Below, piece after piece: positions 2,165-61,403 of a stretch of 64,000 nt of DNA. Under the pieces are notes generated by a model. It was not told the DNA's origin. It saw only the letters and a program-made list of their open reading frames with translations, and did not search any database. This DNA is from Nemophila menziesii (taxonomy: Eukaryota > Streptophyta > Magnoliopsida > Boraginales > Hydrophyllaceae). Each line of letters opens with the position of its first letter. Position 1 is the first letter of the stretch. Position numbers and translations under genes: made by a program. The stretch lies in assembly GCA_029959085.1 (NCBI GenBank), contig JARWIR010000008.1:20136001-20200000 (forward strand), in the 5' to 3' direction.

Positions 2165-2773
2165 TTAGCAATGGAAGTAGCAATTGCAAAAATACTTCCA
2201 GTGTCCCCCATGTCCCCAGCGTTGCTTTTGGCATAATCCATACTGGTAACCCAAGTGCTTGCAGTGATAGCTACATTTGTAGCTTTGTAGGCAATTCCCA
2301 ACCCATTTGGGGCTTTGCTTCCAGCAGAATTTAGCATCCGCACCATTAATCTCTGCATGAAATTAAAATGAAAAGGTTGGGTCTTAGTTATTAAAAAAAC
2401 ATTCCGAGATATTAAAATAAATACAGAAAAAATTTATTCACATTAGCGCCATTTTGATTTATATACAATGAATGATACAAGGAAACCATGACAAAATTTG
2501 AATTAAAGTTATAGTACAAAAGTAGTTGACCATAGAGTTCAAAACAAAATTTAATGAACCGCCACGTACTGCAATAGATATTTATATTCTATAGGTAAAT
2601 TTAAAGCATGGCCGGAGAGAAATATGGATCTACAGATACATTGATATTATGCCTGTGAATATTGCATAGTTATTGATAAATAGGCCAACATGCTACGTAC
2701 CAGATGCAGCAACAATGATGAAGATGTATAACAGAGCTAGGAATGATGCTTTGCAAATCATAGACTTTGCCAT
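2165..2773 (-). CDS. Defensin-like secreted cysteine-rich peptide, copy in U1
   Basis: Two exons on the minus strand: exon 1 at 2701-2773 and exon 2 at 2165-2352, separated by a 348-bp intron with a GTACGT donor and CATGCAG acceptor. The product has 86 residues. Residues 1-24 (MAKSMICKASFLALLYIFII then VAAS) form a hydrophobic signal peptide. The mature part has eight cysteines, C34, C45, C51, C55, C65, C80, C82 and C86, spaced C-x10-C-x5-C-x3-C-x9-C-x14-C-x1-C-x3-C. That is the cysteine-stabilised alpha-beta pattern of plant defensins, and G63-L-C65 fits the GxC of the gamma-core. The intron splitting signal peptide from mature domain is also typical. The mature peptide is basic and rich in aromatic residues. 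A TATAAAA box lies at 2824-2830, 51 bp before the ATG. Such peptides act outside the cell, in defence or in cell-cell signalling such as pollination; the sequence does not say which. Confidence 0.9.
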
Positions 2774-2823
2774 ATTGATGATTTTGGTATTGCTTGTGAG
2801 AAATCATATCTTCAAAGATGTCA

Positions 2824-2830
2824 TTTTATA
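2824..2830 (-). promoter_or_regulatory. TATA box of the U1 defensin-like gene
   Basis: TATAAAA on the minus strand, 51 bp upstream of the ATG. The same heptamer is kept at the same distance in all eight gene copies, although the base just downstream of it varies (GACATC or GAACATC context). Confidence 0.55.
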
Positions 2831-3375
2831 GGGGGAGAACCAAAGTATTCATGAAATAAACAATTAATGAAAAGCTTTTCTGATCTTTTCAATGATATGG
2901 ATGTTTAACAATCCGTGGAGGACACCACAAGAAAAAAATAGTAGAATTGAACAAGTCTGAATATTGATTATGTGATAATGTTAAATAAATTATACACTAG
3001 TTTACCAAATCATGTTTGGAAATGATTAAATACCGTACGGTGTATTGTACCAGACTGGCACTAAGAGCAAGTAAACATATACTATTAAAAACCTTTTTTG
3101 TGATATTCTTATATTTATGCTATCTAAGAAAATTCAGGTAAAATGCATCTTTGAAAATGAATTGTTATTCTTTGAACAAAAAAAAAAAAAAAGAAGTGAA
3201 TTGTTATTGTATAGACCAGTAGCTAGTCTAAAATTTTTAACCTCAATTGTTCATAAAAAAATATATTCAATTTGACATCTTGAATATGTTTGTAAGCCAC
3301 TTTCAACTGATCATCCTTCTGTGGTTTTTACATAATAGTACAAAAATACCTAATATGTATGCCCACCGAAGAACC

Positions 3376-5160
3376 TGCTGTAAAATAAATCCTTTCGTCA
3401 GTTGCAGATCATATATTTTTTATTATTTCTTGAGTTCAATTTATTTTTATCTTGTTTCTATTGATCTCTCAGCTTAGAACTTTCCGATTAGCGCAAAATA
3501 TATGCAAAGGAAAATGTACAAGATATTTATCAAGTATGGCTTCTATATTTTTTAGTATAATATTTTCATCTTTAGGCTAGCAAACTGCGAAAGATATGAT
3601 AAAATTGCAAATGAATTGTAATTGTATGGGTTTTATAATAGGACCAGTATACAAAATGCATAGCAAGGATGTACAATATTGATTCTATACTAATAGAACA
3701 AGAATATTAAAAATACTTAATGAAGTATTATCCTTCCAAATTATTTACCAAAAGGGTTTTATCAAAAATAGATATTTTCCTTAACATACCCCCTCAGGTC
3801 GGAGTATATATTAATGGCACTAGACTTGCTTAGTAATATCTCAAACAATAGCAAACTCTCTGGCTTAGTGAATATATAAGTGTCTTCTATATTTTCTTAT
3901 GTAATGCGTGCATAACAATTCTTCTTGAACTTTCTATGTGGTGACGATCAATTTCCATATTCTTCTTACACTCATGAAATACAAGCTTGACACAAATTAT
4001 CGTCCATTGATTATCATAATAGAGTGTGTCTTCTTCCGGTGGCTCACCTTCCAATCATTTAAATGTTCTCCAAAACATTATCTTGCAGCATGTAGTTGCC
4101 ATTGACTGATATTCAGCCTCTGCGCCTGAACAAGATACAATTGTCAATTTCTTCTTTTTCCATGATATAGGTGCCTGCCCAATGAGATTACGATATCCGG
4201 TTATCAACGTTCTTGCAGCCTTAAATATAACTAACTGGGTATTGCAAAACTCCTTTAACTAAAATGTCACCATCGAAGGACGATGTATGCCTAGTCTAAG
4301 TGTATTTTTTTCATGTACTTTAGGATCTTTAGTAGTACCTCAAGGTGTGGTTTCGACGTCTATGCTTGCCCTGACTCAACTCAAGGACAACAAGTGAAAT
4401 TTCAATCCTTTTTATAGTTAGGTTGATTAGCCTACATGTAATACGTCTTTATGACAATAAATCAATGAACAAGTACTTTATTTGAATAATACAACATTTT
4501 ATTCAACTAGAACCCATAAATTTTTGGCACCCAAGAATAAAGCATTGTCCCATATGACTATAACATATGTTTGTTGAAACAAAGTGATCATTATTATCTT
4601 GCAAGTTATATCCCTGAGAAATACTTGAGTTTATACCAATCCTATGATTTAAATTTTTTGGATAGATATATTTATCATAAACCAACAAAGAAATAAAGTT
4701 AAGTGGATAATATTGGAAAAACATATATTATACTTTAATTTTTTATGTAACCCGATATCCTTGATGGAATTATATAGTTTGAGAAACCAATGTTTTGAAA
4801 CTTTGTTGAAAACCATGTATGGAATTGATTTAGTTTACGTACTATAGTCTCACTCTTTTATCAGAATACAAGTGGAAATTTTATATAAACATCCTCATAA
4901 AACTCTCTGTGTAAAAATTTCTTATGGACGTCGAGTTGGTGCAAGTGTTGTTCTTGCAAATCTAGCACACTGGGGAGAAAACAAACTATCGTTAATTTAA
5001 CAACATTGGACAATGTTTTTCTATAATCAACAATTTATATTCAGATATAACCCTTCTCAAACAACCATTATTTGTAACTCACTATCGTAAAATAAATTTT
5101 AAAATTTTTATTGTACACCCATTTGCAACTAGTGGGTTGTTTATAGGGTGGCATCGGTGC
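3376..5160 (-). mobile_element. Decayed Ty1/copia 3' part (LTR plus pol remnant) in U1
   Basis: Read on the minus strand, pol remains run from about 5160 to 3796. They include CKWVY near 5120, LHQLDV near 4930 (the copia reverse transcriptase region LHQLDVKNAFLHG), AEAEYQSMA at about 4105-4125 and YDNQW near 4010 (RNase H). In-frame stops (for example TGA after WRTFK) and frame changes show it is dead. After it comes a polypurine tract (CTGAGGGGGTA) and a 411-bp LTR, 3376-3786, that starts TGTTAAGG and ends ACAGCA. No 5' LTR, gag or integrase is evident, so the element was truncated before the unit was amplified. Its orientation is the same as the defensin gene, whose promoter lies about 0.55 kb downstream of the LTR end. 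Confidence 0.82.
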
Positions 5161-7623
5161 AAAATATCAAATGTTGGTCGTCTTTATGAGATTCAGTTTT
5201 TTGGTTAATCCCAACACAGTTGTGGATGTTTGAACACCTTGTGAAGAATTTGGAATATCTTTATGATTGTGAGATTATATATGAGCATTTTATGGTGTGA
5301 ATGAATGTAATTATAAAACAATTGGGTTACCTCAACTTGACAGGTCCTTGTTTTTTCTTCTAAGAGGTACATGATTTGAATATTTCCTTAAATATGGTAA
5401 CCTGATTCTAGCTTGCTTGGGGGTCACATGGATGCATATTCTCCGTTGGGCTAGTAGAGGTGTGCGCACACTTGCTCGCGACCCTCGTTATCAAGCAAAA
5501 TGTTATTATATGTGAAAAAATAGGATAGTCGATGAGAGGTATAACATAATCACACTTATTTGGAAAACTTGCAAATTGGAAGAAGTCTTTACTGGATGTG
5601 TTATATAGAAAGGAGGTCAAGGCATATTTCTTAGGTCTTGTGAGTTTCTATTGGTTCCTGCAATGGGGATAATACGGGATAAACAAAGGTAGTAGTTATT
5701 TATATATATTGGTCGAAATGATCGAATCTCTTAATGGAGTACTGAATAATATAGGCATATTGTCGTTTAATTCGCAAGTTGAAAGTTTGAATGTAGTTAT
5801 TATTGAAATTTCGCAAGGATTATAATATATATTTTCAAAGAACTGGTTGTGAAAGATCTTCGAAAAAAGAGATGAGTGCAGAAAAATTAATCTTCCGGAT
5901 AAAAAACCAAGTTGAGAGTTAGATCGAATAATTTGTAACCTTTTTAACTACAGGAATATCATATAAAGATGCGACTAGGTGAACAAGAGTAAATTTAGTG
6001 ATATTTGTGTGTAAGATGATACAAAACAAAACCATCCAAAATATCGTAGACAAGAATAATTTGATTCTTTCTGAATAAATTTTCGATATGGAGTTTTTCT
6101 TTGAAAAAGAATTTTGGATATGCGAATCAACAAATAAGTGGAAAATATTGAGTATCAATAAAACAATTTATAGATATGAGCTTGAAAGAGTATGGTTCGA
6201 CAACCTTAGAGGAAATAATAGTGTTCGATCACATTCAACGATAACGATTTGTTTTGGTGTGTTAATGTATTTGATTAGTCAAAATTACCGCTGGCCACAA
6301 TATGACCATACCATCCTATTCGGACTAGTCCGGCTCTTCAGCCAACTATCAACTGGCCTTTCCACCATACATATCACTTGGAGTAAAAATTATTAAGTGA
6401 CTTCTCAGCGGATTATAAGATGATCTCTCGGTCATAAAACTTATTTGGATGAAAGATCCCTAATTATCTAGTCTAGCACTTCAGCCGCCTACCAGCTGTC
6501 TTCTCAGTCGTTAAGTCACTTGTATATTAAATTCTTAAGTGTCTAATCTGGTTCTTCAGCCGATAATCAACTTCCCTCTCGGTCATAAAACCCATTTGGA
6601 CAATCAACGCATAGAGATTTTAGCTACACACCCATATATTTATATAACAGGATTTTTATTTCTTTGAAAAATAGCAAAAGCCTCTGACTCTTTAAAAAAA
6701 CAATTATTCCACATTTTATATAAAGTCATCCATAAAACTAATCTCATGCCTCTTTTTATGCATACATAATGTGCCCACAAATATCAGGGTCTACTAGACC
6801 AAGAGTCTAAGAATCTTTCCATGCGCTCTTCTTTGAGAATGGATTTTTACATGTTGTTTACCAACCAAAACGTTTTTACATAGCCTCTGAGGAGCCTTGA
6901 GTTGTGGCACACTACTAACCATATTATTTTACCTAAGAGTTTTCAAACCTTTAAGACTCTAGTAGCGTCCATACCGACAATGACAAGTTGGGTTTATTGT
7001 AATCAAACCTTTATTATCCAATATTTGTTGATATTGTGTTGACTTGAGCATTTCATTTTTTTAGACCTCGACTTGAGGCTTTATTGTGTTAACGCGTCGT
7101 GTAACCTTCTATATTTCGACAAATGTGGTGTACAATGATTGGTGCGTCATCGTTTCTGGGGTCAAATCACTTTCGTGAGACTATATTAAGGCCTTTTCTC
7201 TATATGATGGATATTCAATGAGAGATGAAAGGATGAATGACTAACATGTTTGATTTGTAATTTATGTGTGCCATTTTATTGAGTCGAAGTTACCTTACAA
7301 TCGATCCATTTGAACTGATCACTTATTGAATAAATCTGAAAGTGCTTATTAATTTTAATTTTGTTGGGGATTTTTGGTCAACCCCAACTATGAAAATATT
7401 TCTTTTATTGTATATTTTAAATTCACAAAGAAAACAAATTAAAACATTTATATAGTATAATAGGTCTAAAATACAATTTGACAAATACATATATTATATA
7501 TATTTCACTCATAAATGGAAGAATACAAACAAGGAGCAATAAAAAATAATGTAAAGGCTTGTAAGGCCATAAATGGTGACTTTTATTTCAACAGTGCACA
7601 CAAGATCACGAGTTGTGATTTAT

Positions 7624-8232
7624 TTAGCAATGGAAGTAGCAATTGCAAGAATACTTCCAGTGTCCCCCATGTCCCCAGCGTTGCTTTTGGCATAATCCAT
7701 ACTGGTAACCCAAGTGCTTGCAGTGATAGCTACATTTGTAGCTTTGTAGGCAATTCCCAACCCATTTGGGGCTTTGCTTCCAGCAGAATTTAGCATCCGC
7801 ACCATTAATCTCTGCATGAAATTAAAATGAAAAAGTTGGGTCTTAGTTATTTAAAAAACATTCTGAGATATTAAAATAAAAACAGAAAACATTTATTCAC
7901 ATTAGCGCCATTTTAATTTATATACAATGAATGATACAAGGAAACCATGACAAAATTTGAATTAAAGTTATAGTACAAAAGTAGTTGACCATAGAGTTCA
8001 AAACAAAATTTAATGAACCGCCACGTACTGCAATAGATATTTATATTCTATAGGTAAATTTAAAGCATGGCCGGAGAGAAATATGGATCTACAGATACAT
8101 TGATATTATGCCTGTGAATATTGCATAGTTATTGATAAATAGGCCAACATGCTACGTACCAGATGCAGCAACAATGATGAAGATGTATAACAGAGCTAGG
8201 AATGATGCTTTGCAAATCATAGACTTTGCCAT
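7624..8232 (-). CDS. Defensin-like secreted cysteine-rich peptide, copy in U2
   Basis: Exon 1 is 8160-8232 and exon 2 is 7624-7811, with a 348-bp intron. The signal peptide exon is identical to that of the U1 copy. The only coding change seen is F79S, just before C80 (codon TTT to TCT). All eight cysteines, both splice sites and the stop codon are intact. TATA box at 8283-8289. Confidence 0.9.
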
Positions 8233-8833
8233 ATTGATGATTTTGGTATTGCTTGTGAGAAATCATATCTTCAAAGATGTCATTTTATAGGGGGAGAACC
8301 AAAGTATTCATGAAATAAACAATTAATGAAAAGCTTTTCTGATCTTTTCAATGATATGGATGTTTAACAATCCGTGGAGGACACCACCAGAAAAAAATAG
8401 TAGAATTGAACAAGTCTGAATATTGATTATGTGATAATGTTAAATAAACTATACACTAGTTTACCAAATCATGTTTGGAAATGATTAAATACCGTACGGT
8501 GTATTGTACCAGACTGGCACTAAGAGCAAGTAAACATATACTATTAAAAACCTTTTTTGTGATATTCAAATATTTATGCTATCTAAGAAAATTCAGGTAA
8601 AATGCATCTTTGAAAGTGAATTGTTATTCTTTGAACAAAAAAAAAAAAAAGAAGTGAATTGTTATTGTATAGACCAGTAGCTAGTCTAAAATTTTTAACC
8701 TCAATTGTTCATAAAAAAATATATTTAATTTGACATCTTGAATATGTTTGTAAGCCACTTTCAACTGATCATCCTTCTGTGGTTTTTACATAATAGTACA
8801 AAAATTCCTAATATGTATGCCCACCGAAGAACC

Positions 8834-10617
8834 TGCTGTAAATAAATCCTTTCGTCAGTTGCAGATCATATATTTTTTATTATTTCTTGAGTTCAATTTA
8901 TTTTTATCTTGTTTCTATTGATCTCTCAGCTTAGAACTTTCCGATTAGCGCAAAATATATGCAAAGGAAAATGTACAAGATATTTATCATGTATGGCTTC
9001 TATATTTTTTAGTATAATATTTTCATCTTTAGGCTAGCAAACTGCGAAAGATATGATAAAATTGCAAATGAATTGTAATTGTATGGGTTTTATAATAGAA
9101 CCAGTATACAAAATGCATAGCAAGGATGTACAATATTGATTCTATACTAATAGAACAAGAATATTAAAAATACTTAATGAAGTATTATCCATCCAAATTA
9201 TTTACCAAAAGGGTTTTATCAAAAATAGATATTTTCCTTAACATATCCCCTCAGGTCGGAGTATAAATTAATGGCACTAGACTTGCTTAGTAATATCTCA
9301 AACAATAGCAAACTCTCTGGCTTAGTGAATATATAAGTGTCTTCTATATTTTCTTATGTAATGCGTGCATAACAATTCTTCTTGACCTTTCTAAGTGGTG
9401 ACGATCAATTTCCATATTCTTCTTACACTCATGAAATACAAGCATGACACAAATTATCGTCCATTGATTATCATAATAGAGTGTGTCTTCTTTCGGTGGC
9501 TCACCTTCCAATCATTTAAATGTTTTCCAAAACATTATGTTGCAGCATGTAGTTGCCATTGACTGATATTCAGTCTCTGCGCCTGAACAAGATACAATTG
9601 TCAATTTCTTCTTTTTCCATGATATAGGTGCCTGCCCAATGAGATTACGATATCCGGTTATCAACGTTCTTGCAGCCTTAAATATAACTAACTGGGTATT
9701 GCTAAACTCCTTTAACTAAAATGTCACCATCGAAGGACGATGTATGCCTAGTCTAAGTGTATTTTTTTTCATGTACTTTAGGATCTTTAGTAGTACCTCA
9801 AGGTGTGGTTTCGACGTCTATGCTTGCCCTGACTCAACTCAAGGACAACAAGTGAAATTTCAATCCTTTTTATAGTTAGGTTGATTAGCCTACATGTAAT
9901 TCGTCTTTATGACAATAAATCAATGAACATGTACTTTATTTGAATAATACAACATTTTATTCAACTAGAACCCATAAATTTTTGGCACCCAAGAATAAAG
10001 CATTGTCCCATATGACTATAACATATGTTTGTTGAAACAAAGTGATCATTATTATCTTTCAAGTTATATCCCTGAGAAATACTTGAGTTTACCCCAATCC
10101 TATGATTTAAATTTTTTGGATAGATATATTTATCATAAACCAACAAAGAAATAAAGTTAAGTGGATAATATTGGAAAAACATATATTATACTTTAATTTT
10201 TTATGTAACCCGATATCCTTGATGGAATTATATAGTTTGAGAAACCAATGTTTTGAAACTTTGTTGAAAACCATGTATGGAATTGATTTAGTTTACGTAC
10301 TATAGTCTCACTCTTTTATCAGAATACAAGTGGAAATTTTATGTAAACATCCTCATAAAACTCTCTGTGTAAAAATTTTTTATGGACGTCGAGTTGGTGC
10401 AAGTGTTGTTCTTGCAAATCTAGCACACTGGGAGAAAACAAACTATCGTTAATTTAACAACATTGGAAAATGTTTTTCTATAATCAACAATTTATATTCA
10501 GATATAACCCTTCTCAAACAACCATTATTTGTACCTCACTATTGTAAAATAAATTTTAAAATTTTTATTGTACACCCATTTGCAACTAGTGGGTTGTTTG
10601 TAGGGTGGCATCAGTGA
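8834..10617 (-). mobile_element. Decayed Ty1/copia 3' part in U2
   Basis: LTR 8834-9243 and pol remnant to about 10617. One A is missing in the LTR end (TGCTGTAAATAAATCC). The PPT reads GAGGGGATATG. Confidence 0.8.
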
Positions 10618-13110
10618 AAAATATCAAATGTTGGTCGTCTTTATGAGATTCAGTTTTTTGGTTAATCCCAACACAGTTGTGGATGTTTGAACACCTTGTG
10701 AAGAATTTGGAATATCTTTATGATTGTGAGATTATATATGATCATTTTATGGTGTGAATGAATGTAATTATAAAACAATTGGGTTACCTCAACTTGACAG
10801 GTCCTTGTTTTTTCTTCTAAGAGGTACATGATTTGAATATCTCCTTAAATATGGTAACCTGATTCTGGCTTGCTTGGGGGTCACATGGATGCATCTTCTC
10901 CGTTGGGCTAGTAGAGGTGTGCGCACACTTGCTCGCGACCCTCGTTATCAAGCAAAATGTTATTATATGTGAAAAAATAGGATAGTTGATGAGAGGTATA
11001 ACATAATCACACTTATTTGGAAAACTTGCAAATTGGAAGAAGTCTTTATTGGATGTGTTATATAGAAAGGAGGTAAAGGCATATTTCTTAGGTCTTGTGA
11101 GTTTCTATTGGTTCCTGCAATGGGGGATAATACGGGATACACAAAGGTAGTAGTTATTTTTATATATAGTGGTCGAAATGGTCGAATCTCTTAATGGAGT
11201 ACTGAATAATATAGGCATATTGTCGTTTAATTCGCAAGTTGAAAGTTTGAATGTAGTTATTATTGAAATTTCGCAAGGATTATAATATATATTTTCAAAG
11301 AACTGGTTGTGAAAGATTTTCGAAAAAAGAGATGAGTGCAGAAAAATTAAATTTTAGTAGAGGACATTATCTTGCGGATAAAAAACCAAGTTGAGAGTTA
11401 GGACGAATAGTTTGTAACCTTTTTAACTACAAGAATATCATATAAAGATGCGACTAGGTGAACAAGAGTAAATTTAGTGATATTTGTGTGTAAGATGATA
11501 CAAAACAAAACCATCCAAAATATCGTAGACAAGAATAATTTGATTCTTTCTGAATAAATTTTCGATATGGAGTTTTTCTGTGAAAAAGAATTTTGGATAT
11601 GCGAATCAACAAATAAGTGGAAAATATTGCGTATCAATAAATCAATTTATAGAAATGAGCTTGAAAGAGTATGGTTCGACAACCTTAGAGGAAATAATAG
11701 TGTTCGATCACATTTAACGATAGCGATTTGTTTTGGTGTGTTAATGTATTTGATTAGTCAAAATTACCCCTGGCCACAATATAACCATACCATCCTATTC
11801 GGACTAGTCCGGCTCTTCAGCCAACTATCAACTGGCCTTTCCACCATACATATCACTTGGAGTAAAAATTATTAAGTGACTTCTCAGCGGATTATAAGAT
11901 GTTCTCTCGGTCATAAAACTTATTTGGATGAAAGATCCCTAATTATCTAGTCTAGCACTTCAGCCGCCTACTAGCTGTCTTCTCAGTCGTTAAGTCACTT
12001 GTATATTAAATTCTTAAGTGTCTAATCTGGTTCTTCAGCCGATAATCAACTTCCCTCTCGGTCATAAAACCCATTTGGACACAACGCATAGATATTTTAG
12101 CTACACACCCATATATTTATATAACATGATTTTTATTTCGTTGAAAATTAGCAAATGCCTCTGACTCTTTAAAAAAACAATTATTCCACATTTTATATAA
12201 AGTCATCCATAAAACTAATCTCATGCCTCTTTTTATGCATACATAATGTGCCCACAAATATCAAGGTCTACTAGACCAAGAGTCTAAGAATCTTTCCATG
12301 CGCTCTTCTTTGAGAATGGATTTTTACATGTTGTTTACCAACCAAAACGTTTTTACATAGCCTCTGAGGAGCCTTGAGTTGTGGCACACTACTAACCATA
12401 TTATTTTACCTAAGAGTTTTCAAACCTTTAAGACTCTAGTAGCGTCCATACCGACAATGACAAGTTGGGTTTATTGTAATCAAACCTTTATTATCCAATA
12501 TTTGTTGATATTGTGTTGACTTGAGCATTTCATTTTTTAGACCTCGACTTGAGGCTTTATTGTGTTAACGCGTCGTGTAACCTTCTATATTTCGACAAAT
12601 GTGGTGTACAATGATTGGTGCGTCATCGTTTATTGATCGTTTCTGGGGTCAAATCACTTTCGTGAGACTATATGAAGGCCTTTTCTCTATATGATGGATA
12701 TTCAATGAGAGATGAAAGGATGAATGACTAACATGTTTGATTTGTAATTTATGTGTGCCATTTTATTGAGTCGAAGTTACCTTACAATCGATTCATTTGA
12801 ACTGATCACTTATTGAATAAATCTGAAAGTGCTTATTAATTTTAATTTTGTTGGGGATTTTTGGTCAACCCCAACTATGAAAATATTTCTTTTATTGTAT
12901 ATTTTAAATTCACAAAGAAAACAAATTAAAACATTTATATAGTATAATAGGTCTAAAATACAATTTGAAAAATACATATATTATATATATTTCACTCATA
13001 AATGGAAGAATACAAACAAGGAGCAATAAAAAATAATGTAAAGGCTTGTAAGGCCATAAATGGTGACTTTTATTTCAACAGTGCACACAAGATCACGAGT
13101 TGTGATTTAT

Positions 13111-13719
13111 TTAGCAATGGAAGTAGCAATTGCAAGAATACTTCCAGTGTCCCCCATGTCCCCAGCGTTGCTTTTGGCATAATCCATACTGGTAACCCAA
13201 GTGCTTGCAGTGATAGCTACATTTGTAGCTTTGTAGGCAATTCCCAACCCATTTGGGGCTTTGCTTCCAGCAGAATTTAGCATCCGCACCATTAATATCT
13301 GCATGAAATTAAAATGAAAAAGTTGGGTCTTAGTTATTTAAAAAACATTCCGAGATATTAAAATAAAAACAGAAAAAATTTATTCACATTAGCGCCATTT
13401 TAATTTATATACAATGAATGATACAAGGAAACCATGACAAAATTTGAATTAAAGTTATAGTACAAAAGTAGTTGACCATAGAGTTCAAAACAAAATTTAA
13501 TGAACCGCCACGTACTGCAATAGATATTTATATTCTATAGGTAAATTTAAAGCATGGCCGGAGAGAAATATGGATCTACAGATACATTGATATTATGCCT
13601 GTGAATATTGCATAGTTATTGATAAATAGGCCAACATGCTACGTACCAGATGCAGCAACAATGATGAAGATGTATAACAGAGCTAGGAATGATGCTTTGC
13701 AAATCATAGACTTTGCCAT
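13111..13719 (-). CDS. Defensin-like secreted cysteine-rich peptide, copy in U3
   Basis: Exon 1 is 13647-13719 and exon 2 is 13111-13298, with a 348-bp intron. It carries S79 as in U2, plus E25D caused by a base change in the first two bases of exon 2 (AG to AT), right at the signal-peptide/mature boundary. The acceptor CAG itself is unchanged. TATA box at 13770-13776. Confidence 0.9.
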
Positions 13720-45290: not shown

Positions 45291-45576
45291 ATTTACCGAC
45301 GACACGTAAAGTCGTCGGTAAACATAACGCGTCGTCGCTAAAATATAAACTTTACCGACGACTTTTATATTTGTCGGTAAATTACCGACGACAATTCCAA
45401 GAAAAAAAAGCAATAACGACGGCGTTCTGTCATTTACCCACGAGTCTAGTCGTCGGTAAATTACAGGCGAAAGGATTCTCGTGGGTAATTACTTGTCGTC
45501 TGTAAATTGGAAAAGTTTACCGACGACATTACGTGTCGTCGGTAAACTGTCGTGGGTAAATCCCCGATCTGTAGTT
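45291..45576. repeat. Right subterminal repeat cluster and end of the CACTA element
   Basis: Repeated TTTACCGACGAC and GTCGTCGGTAAA words in both orientations, then the terminal TCCCCGATCTGTAGT. It matches the left end through the inverted GATTTACC...ACGACAG stretch. Confidence 0.85.
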
Positions 45577-47355: not shown

Positions 47356-49865
47356 AAAATATTAAATGTTGGTCGTCTTTATGAGATTCAGTTTTTTGGT
47401 TAATCCCAACACAGTTGTGGATGTTTGAACACCTTGTGAAGAATTTGGAATATATTTATGATTGTGAGGTTATATATGAGCATTTTATGGTGTGAATGAA
47501 TGTAAATATAAAACAATTGGGTTACCTCAACTTGACAGGTCCTTGTTTTTTCTTCTAAGAGGTACATAATTTGAATATCTCCCTAAATATGGTAACCTGA
47601 TTCTGGCTTGCTTGGGGGTCGCATGGATGCATATTCTCCGTTGGGCTAGTAGAGGTGTGCGCACACTTGCTCGCAACCCTCGTTATCAAACAAAATGTTA
47701 TTATATGTGAAAAAATAGGATAGTTGATGAGAGGTATAACATAATCACACTTATTTGGAAAACTTGCAAATTGGAAGAAGTTTATATTGGAATTGTTATA
47801 TAGAAAGGAGGTCAAGGAATATTTCTTAGGTCTTGTGAGTTTCTATTGGTTCCTGCAATGGGGGATAATGCGGGATAAACAAAGGTAGTAGTTATTTTTA
47901 TATATAGTGGTCGAAATAATCGAAACTCTTAACGGAGTATTGGATAATATAGGCATATTGTCGTTTAATTCACAAGTTGAAAGTTTGAGTGTAGTGATTC
48001 TTGAAATTTCGCAAGGATTATAATATATATAGTCAACAGAACTGGTTGTGAAAATCTTCGAAAAAAGAGATGAGTGCAGAAAAATTAAATTTTAGTAGAG
48101 AAATTATTTTTAAAGAAGACATTATCTTGCGGATAAAAAACCAAGTTGAGAGTTAGATCGAATAATTTGTAACCTTTTTAACTACAGGAATATCATATAA
48201 AGATGCGACTAGGTGAGCAAGAGTAAATTTAGTGATATTTGTGTGTAAGATGATACAAAACAAAACCATCCAAAATATCGTAGACAAGAATAATTTGATT
48301 CTTTCTGAATAAATTTTCGATATGGAGTTTTTCTTTGAAAAAGAATTTTGGATATGCGAATCAACAAATAAGTAGAAAATGTTGCCTATCAATAAAACAA
48401 TTTATAGATATGAGCTTGAAATAGTATGGTTCGACAACCTTAGAGGAAACAATAGTGTTCAATCACATTCAACGACAGCGGTTTGTTTTGGTGTGTTAAT
48501 GTATTTGATTAGTCAAAATTACCCCTTGGCCACAATATGACCATACCATCCTATACGGACTAGTTTGGCTCTTCAGCCGACTATCAACTGGCCTTTCCAC
48601 CATACATATGACTTGGAGTAAAAATTATTAAGTGACTTCTCAGCAGATTATCGGGATATCTCTCGGTCATAAAACTTATTTGGACGAAAGATCCCTAATT
48701 ATCTAGTCTAGCACTTCACCCGCCTACCAGATGTCTTCTCAATCGTTAAGTCACTTGAATATTAAATTCTTAAGTGTCTAAACTGGTTCTTCAGCCGATA
48801 ATCAACTTCCCTCTCGGTCATAAAACCCATTTGGACAATCAACGCATAGAGATTTTAGCTACACACCCATATATTTATATAACATGATTTTAATTTCGTT
48901 GAAAATTAGCAAAAGCCTCTAACTCTTTAACAAAAAAATTATTCCACATTTTATGACAAGTCATCCATAAAACTAATCTAATGCCTCTTTTTATGCATAC
49001 GTAATGTGCCCACAAATATCAGGGTCTACTAGACCAAGAGTCTAAGAATCTTTCCATGCGCTCTTCTTTGAGAATGGATTTTTACATGTTGTTTACCAAC
49101 CAAAACATTTTTACATAGCCTCTGAGGAGCCTTGAGTTGTGGCACACTACTAATCATATTGTTTTACCTAAGAGTTTTCAAACCTTTAAGACTCTAGTAG
49201 CGTCCATACCGACAATGACAAGTTGGGTTTATTGTAATCAAACCTTTATTATCCAATATTTGTTGATATTGTGTTAACTTGAGCATTTCATTTTTTAGAC
49301 CTCGACTTGAGGCTTTATTGTGTTAACACGTCGTGTAAGCTTCTATATTTCGACAAATGTGGTGTACAATGATTGGTGCGTCATCGTTTATTGATCGTTT
49401 CTGGGGTCAAATCACTTTCGTGAGACTATATGAAGGCCTTTTCTCTATATGATGGATATTCAATGAGAGATGAAAGGATGAATGACTAACATGTTTGATT
49501 TGTATCTTATGTGTGCCATTTTATTGAGTCGAACTTACAATCGATTCATTTGAACTGATCACTTATTGAATAAATCTGAAAGTGCTTATTAATTTTAATT
49601 TTGTTGGGGATTTTTGGTCAACCCCAACTATGAGAATATTTTTCTTTTATTGTATATTTTGAATTCACAAAGAAAACAAATTAAAACATTTATATAGTAT
49701 AATAGGTCTAAAATACAATTTGACAAATACATATATTATATATATTTCACTCATAAATGGAAGAATACAAACAAGGAGCAATAAAAAATAATGTAAAGGC
49801 TTGTAAGGCCATAAATGGTGACTTTTATTTCAACAGTGTACACAAGATCTCGAGTTGTGATTTAT

Positions 49866-50474
49866 TTAGCAATGGAAGTAGCAATTGCAAAAATACTTCC
49901 AGTGTCCCCCATGTCCCCAGCGTTGCTTTTGGCATAATCCATACTGGTAACCCAAGTGCTTGCAGTGATAGCTACATTTGTAGCTTTGTAGGCAATTCCC
50001 AACCCATTTGGGGCTTTGCTTCCAGCAGAATTTAGCATCCGCACCATTAATCTCTGCATGAAATTAAAATGAAAAAGTTGGGTCTTAGTTATTTAAAAAA
50101 CATTCCGAGATATTAAAATAAAAACAGAAAAAATTTATTCACATTAGCGCCATTTTAATTTATATACAATGAATGATACAAGGAAACCATGACAAAATTT
50201 GAATTAAAGTTATAGTACAAAAGTAGTTGACCATAGAGTTCAAAACAAAATTTAATGAACCTCCCCGTACTGCAATAGATATTTATATTCTATAGGTAAA
50301 TTTAAAGCATGGCCGGAGAGAAATATGGATCTACAGATACATTGATATTATGCCTGTGAATATTGCATAGTTATTGATAAATAGCCCAACATGCTACGTA
50401 CCAGATGCAGCAACAATGATGAAGATGTATAACAGAGCTAGGAATGATGCTTTGCAAATCATAGACTTTGCCAT
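49866..50474 (-). CDS. Defensin-like secreted cysteine-rich peptide, copy in U8
   Basis: Exon 1 is 50402-50474 and exon 2 is 49866-50053, with a 348-bp intron. The protein equals the U1 copy (F79). Although this unit is the block-level partner of U5, it lacks the 137-bp intron deletion and keeps the normal CATGCAG acceptor. TATA box at 50525-50531. Confidence 0.9.
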
Positions 50475-51071
50475 ATTGATGATTTTGGTATTGCTTGTGA
50501 GAAATCATATCTTCAAAGATGTTCTTTTATAGGGGGAGAACCAAAGTATTAATGAAATAAACAATTAATGAAAAGCTTTTCTGATCTTTTCAATGATATG
50601 GATGTTTAACAATCCGTGGAGGACACCACCAGAAAAAGTAGAAGAATTGAACAAGTCTGAATATTGATTATGTGATAATGTTAAATAAACTATACACTAG
50701 TTTACCAAATCATGTTTGGAAATGATTAAATACCGTACGGTGTATTGTACCAGACTGGCACTAAGAGCAAGTAAACATATACTATTAAAAACCTTTTTTG
50801 TGATATTTAAATATTTATGCTATCTAAGAAAATTCAGGTAAAATGCATCTTTGAAAGTGAATTGTTATTCTTTGAAAAAAAAAGAAAAAAAGTGAATTGT
50901 TATTGTATAGACCAGTAGCTAGTCTAACATTTTTAACCTCAATTGTTCATAAGAATATATATTCAATTTGACATCTTGAATATGTTTGTAAGCCACTTTC
51001 AACTGATCATCCTTCTGTGGTTTTTACATAATAGTAAAAAAATTCCTAATATGTATGCCCACCGAAGAACC

Positions 51072-52852
51072 TGCTGTAAAATAAATCCTTTCGTCAGTTG
51101 CAGATCATATGTTTTTTATTATTTCTTGAGTTCAATTTATTTTTATCTTGTTTCTATTGATCTCTCAGCTTAGAACTTTCCGATTAGCGCAAAATATATG
51201 CAAAGGAAAATGTACATGATATTTATCATGTATGGCTTCTATATTTTTTAGTATAATATTTTCATCTTTAGGCTAGCAAACTGCGAAAGATATGATAAAA
51301 TTGCAAATGAATTGTAATTGTATGGGTTTTATAATTGAACCAGTATACAAAATGCATAGCAAGGATGTAAAATATTGATTCTATACTAATAGAACAAGCA
51401 TATTAAAAATATTTAATGAAGTATTATCCTTCCAAATTATTTACCAAAAGGGTTTTATCAAAAATAGATATTTTCCTTAACATACCCCCAGGTCGGAGTA
51501 TATATTAATGGCACTAGACTTGCTTAGTAATATCTCAAACAATAGAAAACTCTATGGCTTAGGGAATATATAAGTGTCTTCTATATTTTCTTATGTAATG
51601 CGTGCATAACAATTCTTCTTGAACTTTCTAAGTGGTGACGATCAATTTTCATATTCTTCTTACACTCATGAAATACAAGCTTGACACAAATTATCGTCCA
51701 TTGATTATCATAATAGAGTGTGTCTTCTTTCGGTGGCTCACCTTCCAATCATTTAAATGTTTTCCAAAACATTATCTTGCAGCATGTAGTTGCCATTGAC
51801 TGATATTCAGCCTCTCTGCCTGAACAAGATACAATTGTCTATTTCTTCTTTTTCCATGATATAGGTGCCTGCCGAATGAGATTAGGATATCCGGTTATCA
51901 ACCTTCTTGCAGCCTTAAATATAACTAACTGGGTATTGCTAAACTCCTTTAACTACAATGTCACCATCGAAGGACGATGTATGCCTAGTCCAGGTGTATT
52001 TTTTTCATGTACTTTAGGATCTTTAGTAGTACCTCAAGGTGTGGTTTCGACGTCTATGCTTGCCCTGCCTCAACTCAAGGACAACAAGTGAAATTTCAAT
52101 CCTTTTTACAGTTAGGTTGATTAGCCAACATATAATTCGTCTTTATGACAATAAATCAATGAACATGTATTTTATTTGAATAATACAACCTTTTATTCAA
52201 CTAGAACCCATAAATTTTTGGCACCCAAGAATAATCATTGTCCCATATGACTATAACATATGTTTGTTGAAACAAAGTGATCATTTTTATCTTGCAAGTT
52301 ATATTCCTAAGAAATACTTGAGTTTACCCCAATCCTATGATTTAAATTTTTTGGATAGATATATTTATCATAAACCAACAAAGAAATAAAGTTAAGTGGA
52401 TAATATTGGAAAAACATATATTATACTTTAATTTTTTATGTAACCCGATATCCTTGATGGAATTATATAGTTTGAGAAACCAATGTTTTGAAACTTTGTT
52501 GAAAACCATGTATGGAATTGATTTAGTTTACGAACTATAGTCTCACTCTTTTATCAGAATACAAGTGGAAATTTTATGTAAACATCCTCATAAAACTCTC
52601 TGTGTACAAATTTCTTATGGACATCGAGTTGGTGCAAGTGTTGTTCTTGCAAATCTAGCACACTAGGGAGAAAACAAACTATCGTTAATTTAACAACATT
52701 GGAAAAAAAATTTATATAATCAACAATTTATATTCAGATATAACCCTTCTCAAACAACCATTATTTGTACCTCACTATTGTAAAATAAATTTTAAAATTT
52801 TTATTGTACACCCATTTGCAACTAGTGGGTTGTTTGTAGGGTGGCATCGGTG
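51072..52852 (-). mobile_element. Decayed Ty1/copia 3' part in U8
   Basis: LTR 51072-51482 and pol remnant to about 52852. Shares with U5 the reduced PPT region and base variants in the LTR. Confidence 0.8.
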
Positions 52853-55189
52853 CAAAATATCAAATCTTGGTCGTCTTTATGAGATGCAGTTTTTTGGTTA
52901 ATCCCAACACAGTTGTGAATGTTTGAACACCTTGTGAAGAATTTGGAATATCTTTATGATTGTGAGGTTATATATGAGCATTTTATGGTGTGAATGAATG
53001 TAAATATAAAACAATTGGGTTACCTCAACTTGACAGGTCCTTGTTTTTTCTTCTAAGAGGTACATGATTTGAATATCTCCTTAAATATGGTAACCTGATT
53101 CTGGCTTGCTTGGGGGTCACATGGATGCATATTCTCCGTTGGGCTAGTAGAGGTGTGCGCACACTTGCTCGCGACCCTCGTTATCAAGCAAAATGTTATT
53201 ATATGTGAAAAAATAGGATAGTTGATGAGAGGTATAACATAATCACACTTATTTGGAAAACTTGCAAATTGGAAGAAGTCTTTATTGGATGTGTTATATA
53301 GAAAGGAGGTAAAGGCATATTTCTTAGGTCTTGTGAGTTTCTATTGGTTCCTGCAATGGGGGATAATACGGGATACACAAAGGTAGTAGTTATTTTTATA
53401 TATAGTGGTCGAAATGGTCGAATCTCTTAATGGAGTACTGAATAATATAGGCATATTGTCGTTTAATTCGCAAGTTGAAAGTTTGAATGTAGTTATTATT
53501 GAAATTTCGCAAGGATTATAATATATATTTTCAAAGAACTGGTTGTGAAAGATCTTCGAAAAAAGAGATGAGTGCAGACAAATTAAATTTTAGTAGAGGA
53601 CATTATCTTGCGGATAAAAAACCAAGTTGAGAGTTAGATCGAATAATTTGTAACCTTTTTAACTACAGGAATATCATATAAAGATGCGACTAGGTGAACA
53701 AGAGTAAATTTAGTGATATTTGTGTGTAAGATGATACAAAACAAAACCATCCAAAATATCGTAGGCAAGAATAATTTGATTCTTTCTGAATAAATTTTCG
53801 ATATGGAGATTTTCTTTGAAAAAGAATTTTGGATATGCGAATCAACAAATAAGTGGAAAATATTGCGTATCAATAAAACAATTTATAGATATGAGCTTGA
53901 AAGAGTATGGTTCGACAACCTTAGAGGAAACAATAGTGTTCGATCACATTCAACGATAGCGATTTGTTTTGGTGTGTTAATGTATTTGATTAGTCAAAAT
54001 TACCCCTGACCACAATATGACCATACCATCCTATTCGGACTAGTCCGGCTCTTCAGCCAACTATCAACTGGCCTTTCCACCATACATATCACTTGGAGTA
54101 AAAATTATTAAGTGACTTCTCAGCGGATTATCAGAAGATCTCTCGGTCATAAAACTTATTTGGACGAAAGATCCCTAATTATCTAGTCTAGCACTTCAGC
54201 CGCCTACCAGCTGTCTTCTCAGTCGTTAAGTCACTTGTATATTAAATTCTCAAGTGTCTAATCTGGTTCTTCAGCCGATAATCAACTTCCCTCTCGGTCA
54301 TAAAACCCATTTGGACAATCAACGCATAGAGATTTTAGCTACACACCCATATATTTATATAACATGATTTTTATTTCGTTGAAAATTAGCAAAAGCCTCT
54401 GACTCTTTAACAAAACAATTATTCCACATTTTATAAAAAGTCATCCATAAAAATAATCTAATGCCTCTTTTTATGCATACATAATGTGCCCACAAATATC
54501 AGGGTCTACTAGACCAAGAGTCTAAGAATCTTTCCATGCGCTCTTCTTTGAAAATGGATTTTTACATGTTGTTTACCAACCAAAACGTTTTTACATAGCC
54601 TCTGAGGAGCCTTGAGTTGTGGCACACTACTGACCATATTATTTTACCTAAGAGTTTTCAAACCTTTAAGACTCTAGTAGCGTCCATACCGACAATGACA
54701 AGTTGGGTTTATTGTAATCAAACCTTTATTATCCAATATTTGTTGATATTGTGTTGACTTGAGCATTTCATTTTTTAGACCTCGACTTGAGGCTTTATTG
54801 TGTTAACGCGTCGTGTAACCTTCTATATTTCGACAAATGTGGTGTACAATGATTGGTGCGTCATCGTTTATTGATCGTTTCTGGGGTCAAATCAGTTTCG
54901 TGAGACTATATGATGGCCTTTTCTCTATATGATGGATATTCAATGAGAGATAAAAGGATGAATGACTAGCATGTTTGATTTGTAATTTATGTGTGCCATT
55001 TTATTGAGTCGAAGTTACCTTACAATCGATTCATTTGAACTGATCACTTATTGAATAAATCTGAAAGTGCTTATTATTTTTAATTTTGTTGGGGATTTTT
55101 GGTCAACCCCAACTATGAGAATATTTTTCTTTTATTGTATATTTTAAATTCACAAAGAAAACAAATTAAAACATTTATATAGTATAATA

Positions 55190-55561
55190 TCAGCCTGGCT
55201 ATCGGACACGGGTTATCGGACCGCCGGTCCGGCCCGGACCAATAAGCACCGGCGACGGAACGGGGCCGGTATGATGCAGGTGGCCGGAACGGAACGGAAC
55301 GTCGGTTCCTGGTTCGTGCGGCGTTTTCAGATGTTGAGTTTTAGCTTGGACCGAACCGGTCCGTGACTGATACGGACCGGTAACGGCCCGTTATTATTAT
55401 TATTTTTTTTTTTTATATATATAGGCCCAAACCTAATGTATGCCCAAAACCCACCGACGAAGACGCGTTCCCAAATCCCATTCCTCACCCTACCCTAATT
55501 CGTGACCGCCGTTACTCCGCTCATTCATGTAAAATGGAAATCGAAGGTTCTGATAAAGATG

Positions 55562-55592
<31 letters not shown>

Positions 55593-55704
55593 GGAAGAGG
55601 AGGAAGATGAAGATAACGCGAAATCTGAAGAAGATATTAATGGTGATTATGGTCGAATATGGCTCTTCGGATGATATGATTTTACCTCTTTGGCTATATA
55701 ACTA
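55190..55704 (+). mobile_element. hAT-like element fragment in variant unit U9
   Basis: Same fragment as in U6 with the same left junction. The acidic frame starting at the ATG near 55534 has only about 10 GAA codons (55561-55590), followed by GTGGAAGAG and the same short tail. Confidence 0.45.
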
Positions 55705-58549
55705 GTTAAGCCTGTCAGTCAATAACGGACATTACACGGGTATTACCTAGATCAGTACTCAAACCCCCCCAGTCGGATGATCACTTCGCCACTAAAGTGA
55801 ATAGCCCAAATACTAAAAGCTAATTCTAGTTGTTCCTAAAAGAATTAGTAATCAAAACAAAGTAATAACCAATATATAAAACTCAATCCTATTTAAATCT
55901 AAACAATCCCAAATTCAAAACATAGATTAATTAATTAAGGGTCATCCCTTTTATGCGATTCTCAAGTATAAAGAAATTTAGCTCATGACAAATTTAAAGA
56001 CTAACATAAAAGAAAAGGAATTCATGTTCAAATACAAAAGATAAATAAATAACCTAAAGGGTTGAATGACTATTGTTGGAAGAACAGAATTCCTCCAGCT
56101 TCTAGCTTCTTCTCTCCTTCGTGCTCTGACTTGAAAACCTTAAGCCTCTTGTGTAATTCTCTGAAGTGTGTGAAAGTAGGAGTTTAAGGGGTGTATTTAT
56201 AGGTGTTGGAAGACCCTAGGTAGAATTTGCTTGGAGTGGAAGACAAGTTAAAGACTCTTAAATTCGTAGCCCTAAATTCTAGAAAAGGTAAGATTTTGCT
56301 GCTGATTTGATTTGGTCATATCTTTTTCAATACTTATCCGTTTGAGAAGTTCCAATATATGAAACTGCTTGTCTTGGAATGAGCTTTCTATTGGTGCAGA
56401 CCACTCGTCCAGAATCCATGCCAATCTTTAGTTATGAATTAATCTTTAAAACGTGGCTGGAATTTCAGATTCACAAGGCAGCTTTATCTTTTCCTTCTTT
56501 GAATAAATCTTTCCTAAATCTTCTTATTTCCATGTAAATATTCTTTCCTTTCATCTTTATCTTGACTTGGTCTCTAAGTAATTACCATTTATCTTTTAAA
56601 GTTTCACATTAAATAAATAATTAAACCGCATATGCTTAAAAAGAATAAATCAATAAATCAAGAAAACGAAATAGGAAAGTGCACTCTAAAAATAGAAACT
56701 CGAGTAAAAATCATTTCCTAACACTCTCAAATACACTAAGACTTTATTCTCACTTCTTCTCCTTGGATTGGTGGTGGTCCTTTGTGTGTTCTAAAATAAA
56801 TGCTAATGTAATCGAACCACAACTGCAAGTGTACGGTTGTCCCAAGTAATAATAGTGATAATACAGATTCGTTCCAAGGACGGGATGGTTGACTACAATG
56901 TATATCGATTAATGAATGATTGCACTTATGAAAGCAAATAAAGATAATATGTTTGATTGGTTTTTGTATTAATGCTAAATGATAAAAGACTAAATGGAAA
57001 ATACAATTAAAAGCTAAGACGCAAGTAAAGTGATGTAAAACGCAAGTATGAGAAGATAGCACTTGAGAACGCAAGGGGTCATCCTAATCCTATTTCATAA
57101 CCTATGCTGTTTAAGGGTTAAATTGGTCAATTACAATGGCCGGGATTCTAAATTCCTTATACCCCCGTCAGGATGGACTATAAGGCTATCCTAGAGTGTC
57201 ACTAGTCCCGTCAGGGTAAATATGATCCACTTTTAGATGTTTAAGTTTAATTACCTCATTGGCCCTAGAATTAGCTAAGTTCGTCAGAATCAATAGCTTC
57301 TATTCTAGATTGAATAAATGGTTCTGTACCTAAACCCTCCTTCAGGATGATCCAATCGCCACTAATTGGAATAGCCTAGATACTAACACCTGTTCCTAGT
57401 TCATGACTCTAAAAACAGTAAATATTCTCAATTTATCGAAAAGGGTAAAAGACACAATCTAATTTAATTTAACAGAAACCCAAATTCAACATATGAAATT
57501 CAATAAGATTTGGGAATTACCCATATAGCATTCTCAAGCACTAAAATGTGTTTAGCTCATATTAATTGAAAACAAAACTAAATTAAATAAAAGGGAATTC
57601 ATATTGTTTACAAAATTAAAGATAAAAGAACCTAATTTCCGGAACAGGAATGACTGAGAACGCAGATATAGACCCTCTCCAGCTCTTGCAGCTTCTTCTT
57701 TCTTCCTTCTGTTGCTTCTCTCTGATGTTTAATCTTGTGGAATGTGAATTGTTGTGAAAATAGAGGTCAAAGGCTCCTTTTATAAGTGGAAAAACGGATT
57801 AGGGCTTGGACCTAAGAATAAAACACTAATTAAATGTCCAAGCCCAATTTCTAAGCCCAAAATCCCGTAACTGCTGATACACCTTCACTAAAACGGCTTT
57901 TCCCGCTTCGTTATGACTCTGATTGACTTAGTTCCGGTTGCTAAAGTTCCGTAACTCGATAAGGAATGTTTTCTCTTCAAAGGTAAGTGGCTAAATCATC
58001 TCTTAAGCACCTCGAAATCAGCAATCTATGGCCTGGAAAACAGATTTTCAGCTCTAAAAATAATTTATTTCGGGATTTATCTTTAAGTCCTGACTCTATA
58101 TCACGATCTTTGACTCTCTTCTCGGATTCCATTCCTAACTAATATTCAAATACTACAAACTTTCCACTAAAATACACAAGATTACGCGCAAAAGTTTAAT
58201 AAATCAAAAATACTAGAAATAAAATGGAAATTCCGGATTATTGCATTTTTAACTCAAAAGTCTATCATATTAATCAAATAAACACAAAAAATGATGTCTC
58301 CCAAGGGTCGAAAATGAGAACAATTAGGGAGACATCAATTGGTCTTTCATGAATTTCAAGAACCAATTAACTTTGCATTAAAAATAGTCAAATTTACGCA
58401 CAAAAGCTCAGATTCTGCAAATAGTTAATTTCCAAGGGGAGGAAGTGCAATATGATCAATTAAGCCTAAAAGTCTATCAAATAAGTCATTTATTCACCTA
58501 AAAGGATGTCTCCAAAGGGATAATAATTATAACAAATAGGGAGACATCA
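55705..58549 (-). mobile_element. LTR-like non-coding retroelement sequence in U9
   Basis: Counterpart of the U6 segment, nearly identical by eye. Here the first inverted repeat is perfect: GATGTCTCCC at 58293-58302 and GGGAGACATC at 58327-58336; the second pair is 58505-58513 and 58540-58548. No coding frame is recognised. Confidence 0.4.
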
Positions 58550-60931
58550 ATTATATATGAGCATTTTATGGTGTGAATGAATGTAATTATAAAACAATTG
58601 GGTTACCTCAACTTGACAGGTCCTTGTTTTTTCTTCTAAGAGGTACATGATTTGAATATCTCCTTAGATATGGTAACCTGATTCTGGCTTGCTTGGGGGT
58701 CACATGGATGCATATTCTCCGTTGGGCTAGTAGAGGTGTGCGCACACTTGCTCGCGACCCTCGTTATCAAGCAAAATGTTATTATATGTGAAAAAATAGG
58801 ATAGTTGATGAGAGGTATAACATAATCACACTTATTTGGAAAACTTGTGAATTGGAAGAAGTCTTTATTGGATGTGTTATATAGAAAGGAGGTCAAGGAA
58901 TATTTCTTAGGTCTTGTGAGTTTCTATTGGTTCCTGCAATGGGGGATAATACGGGATAAACAAAGGTAGTAGTTATTTTTATATATAGTGGTCGAAATGG
59001 TCGAATCTCTTAATGTAGTACTGAATAATATAGGCATATTGTCGTTTAATTCACAAGTTGAAAGTTTGAATGTAGTTATTATTGAAATTTCGCAAGGATT
59101 ATAATATATATTTTCAAAGAACTGGTTGTGAAAGATCTTCGAAAAAAGAGATGAGTGCAGAAAAATTAAATTTTAGTAGAGGACATTATCTTGCGGATAA
59201 AAAACCAAGTTGAGAGTTAGATCGAATAATTTGTAACCTTTTTAACTACAGGAATATCATATAAAGATGCGACTAGGTGAACAAGAGTAAATTTAGTGAT
59301 ATTTGTGTGTAAGATGATACAAAACAAAACCATCCAAAATATCGTAGACAAGAGTAATTTGATTCTTTCTGAATAAATTTTCGATATGGAGTTTTTCTTT
59401 GAAAAAGAATTTTGGATATGCGAATCAACAAATAAGTGGAAAATATTGCGTATCAATAAAACAATTTATAGATATGAGCTTGAAAGAGTATGGTTCGACA
59501 ACCTTAGAGGAAACAATAGTGTTCGATCACATTCAACGATAGCGATTTTTTTTGGTGTGTTAATGTATTTGATTAGTCAAAATTACCCCTGACCACAATA
59601 TGACCATACCATCATATTCGGACTAGTCCGGCTCTTCAGCCAACTATCAACTGGCCTTTCCACCATACATATCACTTGGAGTAAAAATTATTAAGTGACT
59701 TCTCAGCGGATTATCAGAAGATCTCTCGGTCATAAAACTTATTTAAACGAAAGATCCCTAATTATCTAGTCTAGCACTTCAGCCGCCTACCAGCTGTCTT
59801 CTCAGTCGTTAAGTCACTTGTATATTAAATTCTTAAGTGTCTAATCTGGTTCTTCAGCCGATATTCAACTTCCCTCTCGGTCATAAAACCCATTTGGACA
59901 ATCAACACATAGAGATTTTAGCTACACACCCATATATTTATATAACATGATTTTTATTTCGTTGAAAATTAGCAAAAGCCTCTGACTCTTTAACAAAACA
60001 ATTATTCCACATTTTATAAAAAGTCATCCATAAAAATAATCTAATGCCTCTTTTTATGCATACATAATGTGCCCACAAATATCAGGGTCTACTAGACCAA
60101 GAGTCTAAGAATCTTTCCATGCGCTCTTCTTTGAGAAAGGATTTTTACATGTTGTTTACCAGCCAAAACGTTTTTACATAGCCTCTGAGGAGCCTTGAGT
60201 TGTGGCACACTACTAACCATATTATTTTACCTAATAGTTTTCAAACCTTTAAGACTCTAGTAGCGTCCATACCGACAATGACAAGTTGGGTTTATTGTAA
60301 TCAAACCTTTATTATCCAATATTTGTTGATATTGTGTTGACTTGAGCATTTCATTTTTTAGACCTCGACTTGAGGCTTTATTGTGTTAACGCGTCGTGTA
60401 ACCTTCTATATTTCGACAAATGTGGTGTACAATGATTGGTGCGTCATCGTTTATTGATCGTTTCTGGGGTCAAATCAGTTTCGTGAGACTATATGAAGGC
60501 CTTTTCTCTATATGATGGATATTCAATGAGAGATAAAAGGATGAATGACTAGCATGTTTGATTTGTAATTTATGTGTGCCATTTTATTGAGTCGAAGTTA
60601 CCTTACAATCGATTCATTTGAACTGATCACTTATTGAATAAATCTGAAAGTGCTTATTAATTTTAATTTTGTTGGGGATTTTTGGTCAACCCCAACTATG
60701 AAAATATTTCTTTTATTGTATATTTTAAATTCACAAAGAAAACAAATTAAAACATTTATATAGTATAATAGGTCTAAAATACAATTTGACAAATACATAT
60801 ATTATATATATTTCACTCATAAATGGAAGAATACAAACAAGGAGCAATAAAAAATAATGTAAAGGCTTGTAAGGCCATAAATGGTGACTTTTATTTCAAC
60901 AGTGCACACAAGATCACGAGTTGTGATTTAT

Positions 60932-61403
60932 TTAGCAATGGAAGTAGCAATTGCAAGAATACTTCCAGTGTCCCCCATGTCCCCAGCGTTGCTTTTGGCA
61001 TAATCCATACTGGTAACCCAAGTGCTTGCAGTGATAGCTACATTTGTAGCTTTGTAGGCAATTCCCAACCCATTTGGGGCTTTGCTTCCAGCAGAATTTA
61101 GCATCCGCACCATTAATCTCTGCATGAAATTAAAATGAAAAAGTTGGGTCTTAGTTATTTAAAAAACATTCCGAGATATTAAAATAAAAACAGAAAAAAT
61201 TTATTCACATTAGCGCCATTTTAATTTATATACAATGAATGATACAAGGAAATATAGATCTACAGATACATTGATATTATGCCTGTGAATATTGCATAGT
61301 TATTGATAAATAGGCCAACATGCTACGTACCAGATGCAGCAACAATGATGAAGATGTATAACAGAGCTAGGAATGATGCTTTGCAAATCATAGACTTTGC
61401 CAT
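60932..61403 (-). CDS. Defensin-like secreted cysteine-rich peptide, copy in U10 (short intron)
   Basis: Exon 1 is 61331-61403 and exon 2 is 60932-61119. It has the same 137-bp intron deletion as the U5 copy (intron 211 bp) but the normal CATGCAG acceptor, and S79 rather than F79, so it combines features of different copies. TATA box at 61454-61460. A copia LTR starts about 680 bp upstream. Confidence 0.9.

Follow-up and report, generated by a model that had tools for sequence, protein, structure and literature searches.

A tandem array of at least eight nearly identical defensin-like peptide genes in Nemophila menziesii

Organization of the array

A 64,000-nucleotide stretch of the Nemophila menziesii genome (contig JARWIR010000008.1, positions 20,136,001 to 20,200,000; hereafter the window) carries a tandem array of genes for a small, putatively secreted defensin-like (DEFL) peptide with eight cysteines. 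When the first 5,441 bases were compared with the whole window, ten tandem unit starts emerged, the unit boundaries being arbitrary and fixed by the start of the window. Seven units are full-length (5,370-5,497 bases each, unit 7 being measured without its insertion), and the last, unit 10, is truncated near unit position 3459. The gene is present in eight of the ten units and absent from units 6 and 9. An earlier note on this DNA, made from the sequence alone, had described at least eight near-identical copies in ordinary units of about 5.5 kb. Both statements hold, with eight genes that vary at three coding sites and seven units of 5.37-5.50 kb, and the picture is refined in that the eight gene-bearing units stand among ten unit starts, two of them without the gene. 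Eight copies is a lower bound, because the left end of the array is not visible and the right-hand unit 10 is cut by an element that leaves the window (Table 1).

Long near-identical tandem units are generally known as a classic source of misassembly, and one or two real copies might in principle have been multiplied in the assembly. However, the units are 0.9-4.0% apart in pairwise comparison and have differing insertions and introns. These unit-specific differences and distinct insertions make an assembly artefact very improbable.

Table 1. Features located in the window (positions are those of the window, 1 to 64,000).
Feature	Position	Strand	Remarks
DEFL copy 1 (unit 1)	2165-2773	-	exon 1 2701-2773, intron 2353-2700, exon 2 with stop 2165-2352; F79
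DEFL copy 2 (unit 2)	7624-8232	-	S79
DEFL copy 3 (unit 3)	13111-13719	-	D25 and S79
DEFL copy 4 (unit 4)	18594-19199	-	S79; intron 345 nt
DEFL copy 5 (unit 5)	24097-24568	-	F79; intron 211 nt through an internal deletion; coding sequence intact
DEFL copy 6 (unit 7)	35108-35716	-	H44 and F79
DEFL copy 7 (unit 8)	49866-50474	-	F79
DEFL copy 8 (unit 10)	60932-61403	-	S79; 211-nt intron of the same type as in copy 5
Units 1-5, consecutive	1-27226		1-5441, 5443-10898, 10900-16380, 16382-21855, 21857-27226
Unit 6, gene-less	27228-32946		insert in place of unit positions ~2003-5274
Unit 7, split by CACTA element	32948-47636		
Unit 8, uninterrupted	47638-53134		
Unit 9, gene-less	53136-58717		replacement of the unit 6 kind
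Unit 10, cut short	58719-62084		
Unit 6 insert	29279-32780		3,502 bases; displaces unit positions ~2003-5274
Unit 9 insert	55190-58549		3,360 bases; same kind of replacement
CACTA-type DNA transposon in unit 7	36314-45575	-	9.3 kb; Transposase_21/tnp2, DUF4218, Transpos_assoc, DUF4216
Ty1-copia element end, cuts unit 10	62085-64000	-	exits the window; RVT_2 match

Gene structure of the eight copies

All eight copies conform to one minus-strand gene model, which consists of an ATG, a 73-nt exon 1, a phase-1 GT...AG intron and a 188-nt exon 2 including the stop codon, and which specifies a precursor of 86 aa. The sequence of exon 1 is identical throughout, the intron measures 345-348 nt in six copies and 211 nt in two, and neither a frameshift nor an early stop occurs in any copy. 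Each of them has a TATAAAA whose first base lies 57 nt upstream of the ATG. The matching signal exon, GT-AG borders, consistent phase, cysteine spacing and TATA box listed in the earlier note were each recovered in all eight copies. In every gene model a single predicted intron separates the putative signal from the mature part, and this exon-intron-exon form is described as typical in a published account (PMC12024934).

Downstream of the coding sequence, an AATAAA lies 36 nt past the stop codon in seven of the eight copies, copy 5 being the exception; a second AATAAA, overlapping the stop codon, is kept in all eight, including copy 5. The acceptor of copy 5 is also altered (TTGAAG in place of ATGCAG). 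Its acceptor context, 211-nt intron and loss of the downstream AATAAA suggest that decay of this copy may be beginning.

Two open reading frames (ORFs) that frame-scanning reports over exon 2, one of 65 codons (2161-2358, minus strand) and one of 92 codons (2056-2334, plus strand), were confirmed, and the earlier view that both are wrong is upheld: a Pfam search with the two frames gave no match, and they are of chance quality. The exon-2 peptide was recoded synonymously at random 20,000 times, with third-base weights chosen by the analyst; the shifted frame that holds the 65-codon minus-strand ORF was still open in 28% of the recodings, and two of the three antisense frames were open in 12% and 16%. 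Since such frames stay open in 12-28% of recodings, overlapping coding is unnecessary to account for them, and it was rejected on this ground and on the lack of a Pfam match. Annotation can overlook genes of this kind, whose coding regions are split into short exons and share their DNA with open frames without apparent meaning. Within the window, no RNA family reached its gathering score and no tRNA gene was found.

The encoded peptide

The cysteine spacing C-x10-C-x5-C-x3-C-x9-C-x14-C-x-C-x3-C is shared by all eight copies. The six-frame translation of the window contains this exact pattern eight times, in each case at one of these genes; with a looser DEFL pattern the hits were the same eight, and none appeared in 30 first-order Markov shuffles. 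The spacing is that of an eight-cysteine cysteine-stabilized alpha-beta (CS-alpha-beta) peptide with the C-x3-C and C-x-C elements of defensins, and the cysteines would be expected to pair in four disulfides. The loop between the fifth and sixth cysteines is longer than in classical defensins; here it comprises 14 residues and is rich in glycine, histidine and tryptophan. The N-terminus has the hydrophobic stretch of a putative secretory signal (residues 9-23, mean Kyte-Doolittle value 2.65), and the peptide is computed to be cationic, with a high positive charge.

The search against DEFL profiles proposed in the earlier note was partly successful, in that two plant defensin families were matched, both below their curated cut-offs. 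AtDEF-like (PF25052) gave an E value of 4.9e-5 and 24.0 bits against a gathering cut-off of 25, with 24.1, 23.8 and 23.3 bits for the remaining variants; Gamma-thionin (PF00304) gave an E value of 0.0013 and 19.4 bits against 25.1, and 20.3 bits for the best variant. The fold prediction proposed at the same time returned the expected type of structure: the predicted fold is beta-alpha-beta-beta (strand-helix-strand-strand), as in plant defensins, and plant defensins fill ranks 1-13 of a Foldseek search with it, with no E value below 0.001. No close protein homologue was found by a search that requires shared 5-residue words, which distant DEFLs would escape. The description of an 86-residue, eight-cysteine, defensin-like peptide that is apparently spliced and secreted agrees with these sequence features and with the modelled fold. 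The 62-residue mature peptide of the earlier note has to be corrected, since the Gamma-thionin match starts at residue 33 and a mature peptide of about 54-55 aa is more likely.

Taken together, the Pfam matches, the cysteine spacing and the predicted fold indicate that the gene is a divergent DEFL gene. It resembles plant defensin (PF00304) and AtDEF-like (PF25052) genes in its signal exon, one intron and cysteine-rich exon, in the eight cysteines with C-x3-C and C-x-C, and in the cationic product with a predicted strand-helix-strand-strand fold, and differs from them in that its product scores under both Pfam cut-offs and that no close sequence relative was found.

The peptide might alternatively be a reproductive signal, of the pollen coat or ovule attractant type, and not an antimicrobial one. 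A species-specific DEFL cluster, AtLURE1, encodes pollen-tube attractants in Arabidopsis (PMC3525529), and the peptide gave a weak match to the SLR1-BP pollen coat family (PF07333; E value 0.23). However, a score of 12.3 bits where the cut-off is 22.7 amounts to noise, the cysteine spacing and the predicted fold match ordinary plant defensins and the positive charge is high, while the AtLURE1 peptides are reported there to have six cysteines and 80-95% identity between copies (PMC3525529). We therefore regard a reproductive role as quite improbable.

Sequence variation and exchange between units

Of the 5,477 columns compared across the eight gene-bearing units, 346 are variable (about 6%). 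In the coding sequence, three of 261 positions vary, giving E25D in copy 3 only, N44H in copy 6 only, and F79S in four of the eight copies. The tests below use 262 positions, namely the 261 coding bases and one intron base. The coding region is less variable than the rest of the unit (3/262 versus 343/5,215, P = 7e-5), than the intron (P = 0.044), and than intron, untranslated region (UTR) and core promoter together (P = 0.032), although these P values assume independent sites, an assumption that shared ancestry and exchange violate. A mask of the same shape as the coding region, moved along the unit, covered 16.4 variable positions on average, and at none of the 3,611 placements at a distance of more than 610 bp did it cover three or fewer. 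In pairwise comparison, the mean difference is lowest in the coding sequence (0.41%), higher in the intron (1.50%) and highest in the flanks (2.47%). Three nonsynonymous changes stand against 13.3 expected from the unit-wide rate (P = 0.0008); synonymous sites are also unchanged (0 changes at about 46 sites, probability 0.054). With three nonsynonymous and no synonymous changes, an outcome that has a probability of 0.55 under neutrality, the dN/dS check named in the earlier note is without power at three sites. The low overall coding diversity is consistent with constraint and seems partly due to exchange between units; selection at the protein level is plausible, not proven.

Recombination between units is clear. 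Failures of a four-gamete test on 124 shared two-state sites climb with distance: 36 of the 767 site pairs closer than 250 bp fail, compared with 115 of 320 at 2.25-2.5 kb and 862 of 2,726 from 2.5 kb upwards. When the order of the sites was shuffled, a mean of 158 near pairs failed versus the 36 observed, and none of 500 shuffles gave so low a number. The intron deletion is common to units 5 and 10, whose left flanks differ at 79 of 1,978 bases. Next to the TATA box, copies 1, 2, 3 and 8 have the promoter haplotype TATAAAATGAC and copies 4-7 have TATAAAAGAAC; these haplotypes do not track the split between F79 (copies 1, 5, 6 and 7) and S79 (copies 2, 3, 4 and 8), which is a further sign of exchange.

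The contrast between gene core and flanks points in the same direction. Units 5 and 8 differ from the other six at 68-86 of 1,924-1,978 bases (3.5-4.4%) in the left flank and at 18-29 of 1,334-1,474 (1.3-2.1%) in the gene core; their right-flank differences from the five other covered units number 42-60 in about 2,020 bases. Of the 15 pairs that exclude units 5 and 8, 12 have a core less divergent than the left flank. The four-gamete pattern, this contrast and the intron deletion common to units 5 and 10 imply that gene conversion or crossing-over accounts for much of the uniformity, to which purifying selection may add.

A stronger version of this idea would make the locus a dose array, in which conversion repeatedly overwrites the gene core of about 1.5 kb (promoter, exons and intron) despite a left-flank difference of about 4%, and in which copy number is a selected dosage trait. 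If so, the plant would keep one peptide gene in many copies and two main isoforms, F79 and S79 with four copies each, whereas defensin-like clusters usually diversify. A hand count weighs against a simple view of the core as homogenized: the core was more divergent than the left flank in three of the 15 pairs, most clearly between units 1 and 7 (27/1,473 in the core versus 16/1,930 in the left flank). Because of these three contrary pairs we lowered our estimate and consider a dose array of this kind unlikely.

The main rival explanation is a neutral, satellite-like amplification that carries the DEFL gene incidentally, stays uniform through recency and exchange, and has no selected dose effect. 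It would fit the small overall difference between units, the clear exchange between them, the loss of the gene from two of the ten units and the altered state of copy 5, as well as the coding changes, all three of which are nonsynonymous, and the synonymous sites, which are likewise unchanged. On the other side, the coding sequence is far less variable than the rest of the unit and somewhat less variable than intron, UTR and core promoter, and all eight reading frames are intact. On balance we view this neutral explanation as a serious contender, though a doubtful one.

Proposed explanation and comparison with known systems

We put the probability that the array is one of working DEFL genes at roughly 0.7; that the plant benefits from the dose is less certain, and the rival explanations do not all exclude such an array. 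In the explanation that we propose, one plant defensin-like gene would have undergone a recent and still-exchanging tandem amplification. Every gene-bearing unit appears to come complete with TATA box, secretory exon, intron and mature-peptide exon. Each copy could thus be transcribed independently of the others and, if expressed and spliced as predicted, would yield an almost identical cationic peptide of about 55 aa with eight cysteines. Copy number would change through unequal crossing-over and gene conversion between units; these processes would also pass variants, for example F79/S79 and the short intron, from unit to unit and contribute to uniformity, with purifying selection on the peptide as a possible added factor. 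The most likely outcome would be a higher output of one secreted peptide of antimicrobial type, copy 5 being in doubt as a working gene. The earlier note had likewise suggested that amplification might raise the dose of one peptide, perhaps for defence or for pollen-pistil signalling.

Defensin-like clusters are usually treated as sources of diversity; unlike in that view, the Nemophila array is amplified yet almost uniform. Many DEFL genes occur in clusters of tandem duplicates (PMC5731061). The array belongs to this known type, and its uniformity is the notable feature. No earlier report of the array was found in the open-licence literature, among the matches listed. The AtLURE1 cluster is likewise a recent local DEFL cluster, possibly with gene conversion in its origin (PMC3525529); it differs in having six cysteines versus eight here, and six genes, one of them a pseudogene, with 80-95% amino acid identity, compared with eight genes and three variable residues in Nemophila.

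The nearest arrangement found is that of soybean Hps, which likewise consists of tandem units with one small cysteine-rich protein gene each (PMC1421400). The soybean unit is 8.6 kb in size versus about 5.5 kb here, two clones were 97.5% identical over 8 kb, and copy number was linked to the surface protein and to seed lustre (PMC1421400). HPS is a hydrophobic protein and not a defensin, and its locus has a reported copy number of at least 27 ± 5 together with a phenotype, whereas the Nemophila array is known only as DNA sequence (PMC1421400 for the soybean data). The array is a compact natural case in which to ask whether dose is the reason for amplifying a small secreted peptide in plants, an idea put forward for soybean Hps.

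Gene-less units and transposable elements

The inserts that replace the gene in units 6 and 9 are 98.3% identical over 2,998 bases, and a replacement common to both implies copying from one unit to the other, or exchange between them. An AAG repeat has 57 copies in the unit 6 insert and about 19 in that of unit 9. In the left flank of unit 1, positions 857-982 and 1000-1133 are adjoining related stretches that are 68% alike.

Unit 10 is cut by a Ty1-copia element with a long open antisense reverse transcriptase and RNase H stretch (63078-63998); its RVT_2 match reaches 27.8 bits, below the cut-off of 31.6 (E value 2.3e-6). The RNase H part and a probable left long terminal repeat were identified by eye.

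The CACTA element in unit 7 contains an open tnp2 frame of 845 codons, a 40-bp tandem repeat of 16.5 copies and several GTCGTCGGTAAA-like motifs spotted by eye, and its right terminus deviates from the CACTA start present at the left end. The listed relatives of its transposase domain, 120 of 261, are headed among those with a name by two from Tanacetum, and daisy-family names are commonest, with Cannabis, Humulus and Ulmus close behind at similar identity.
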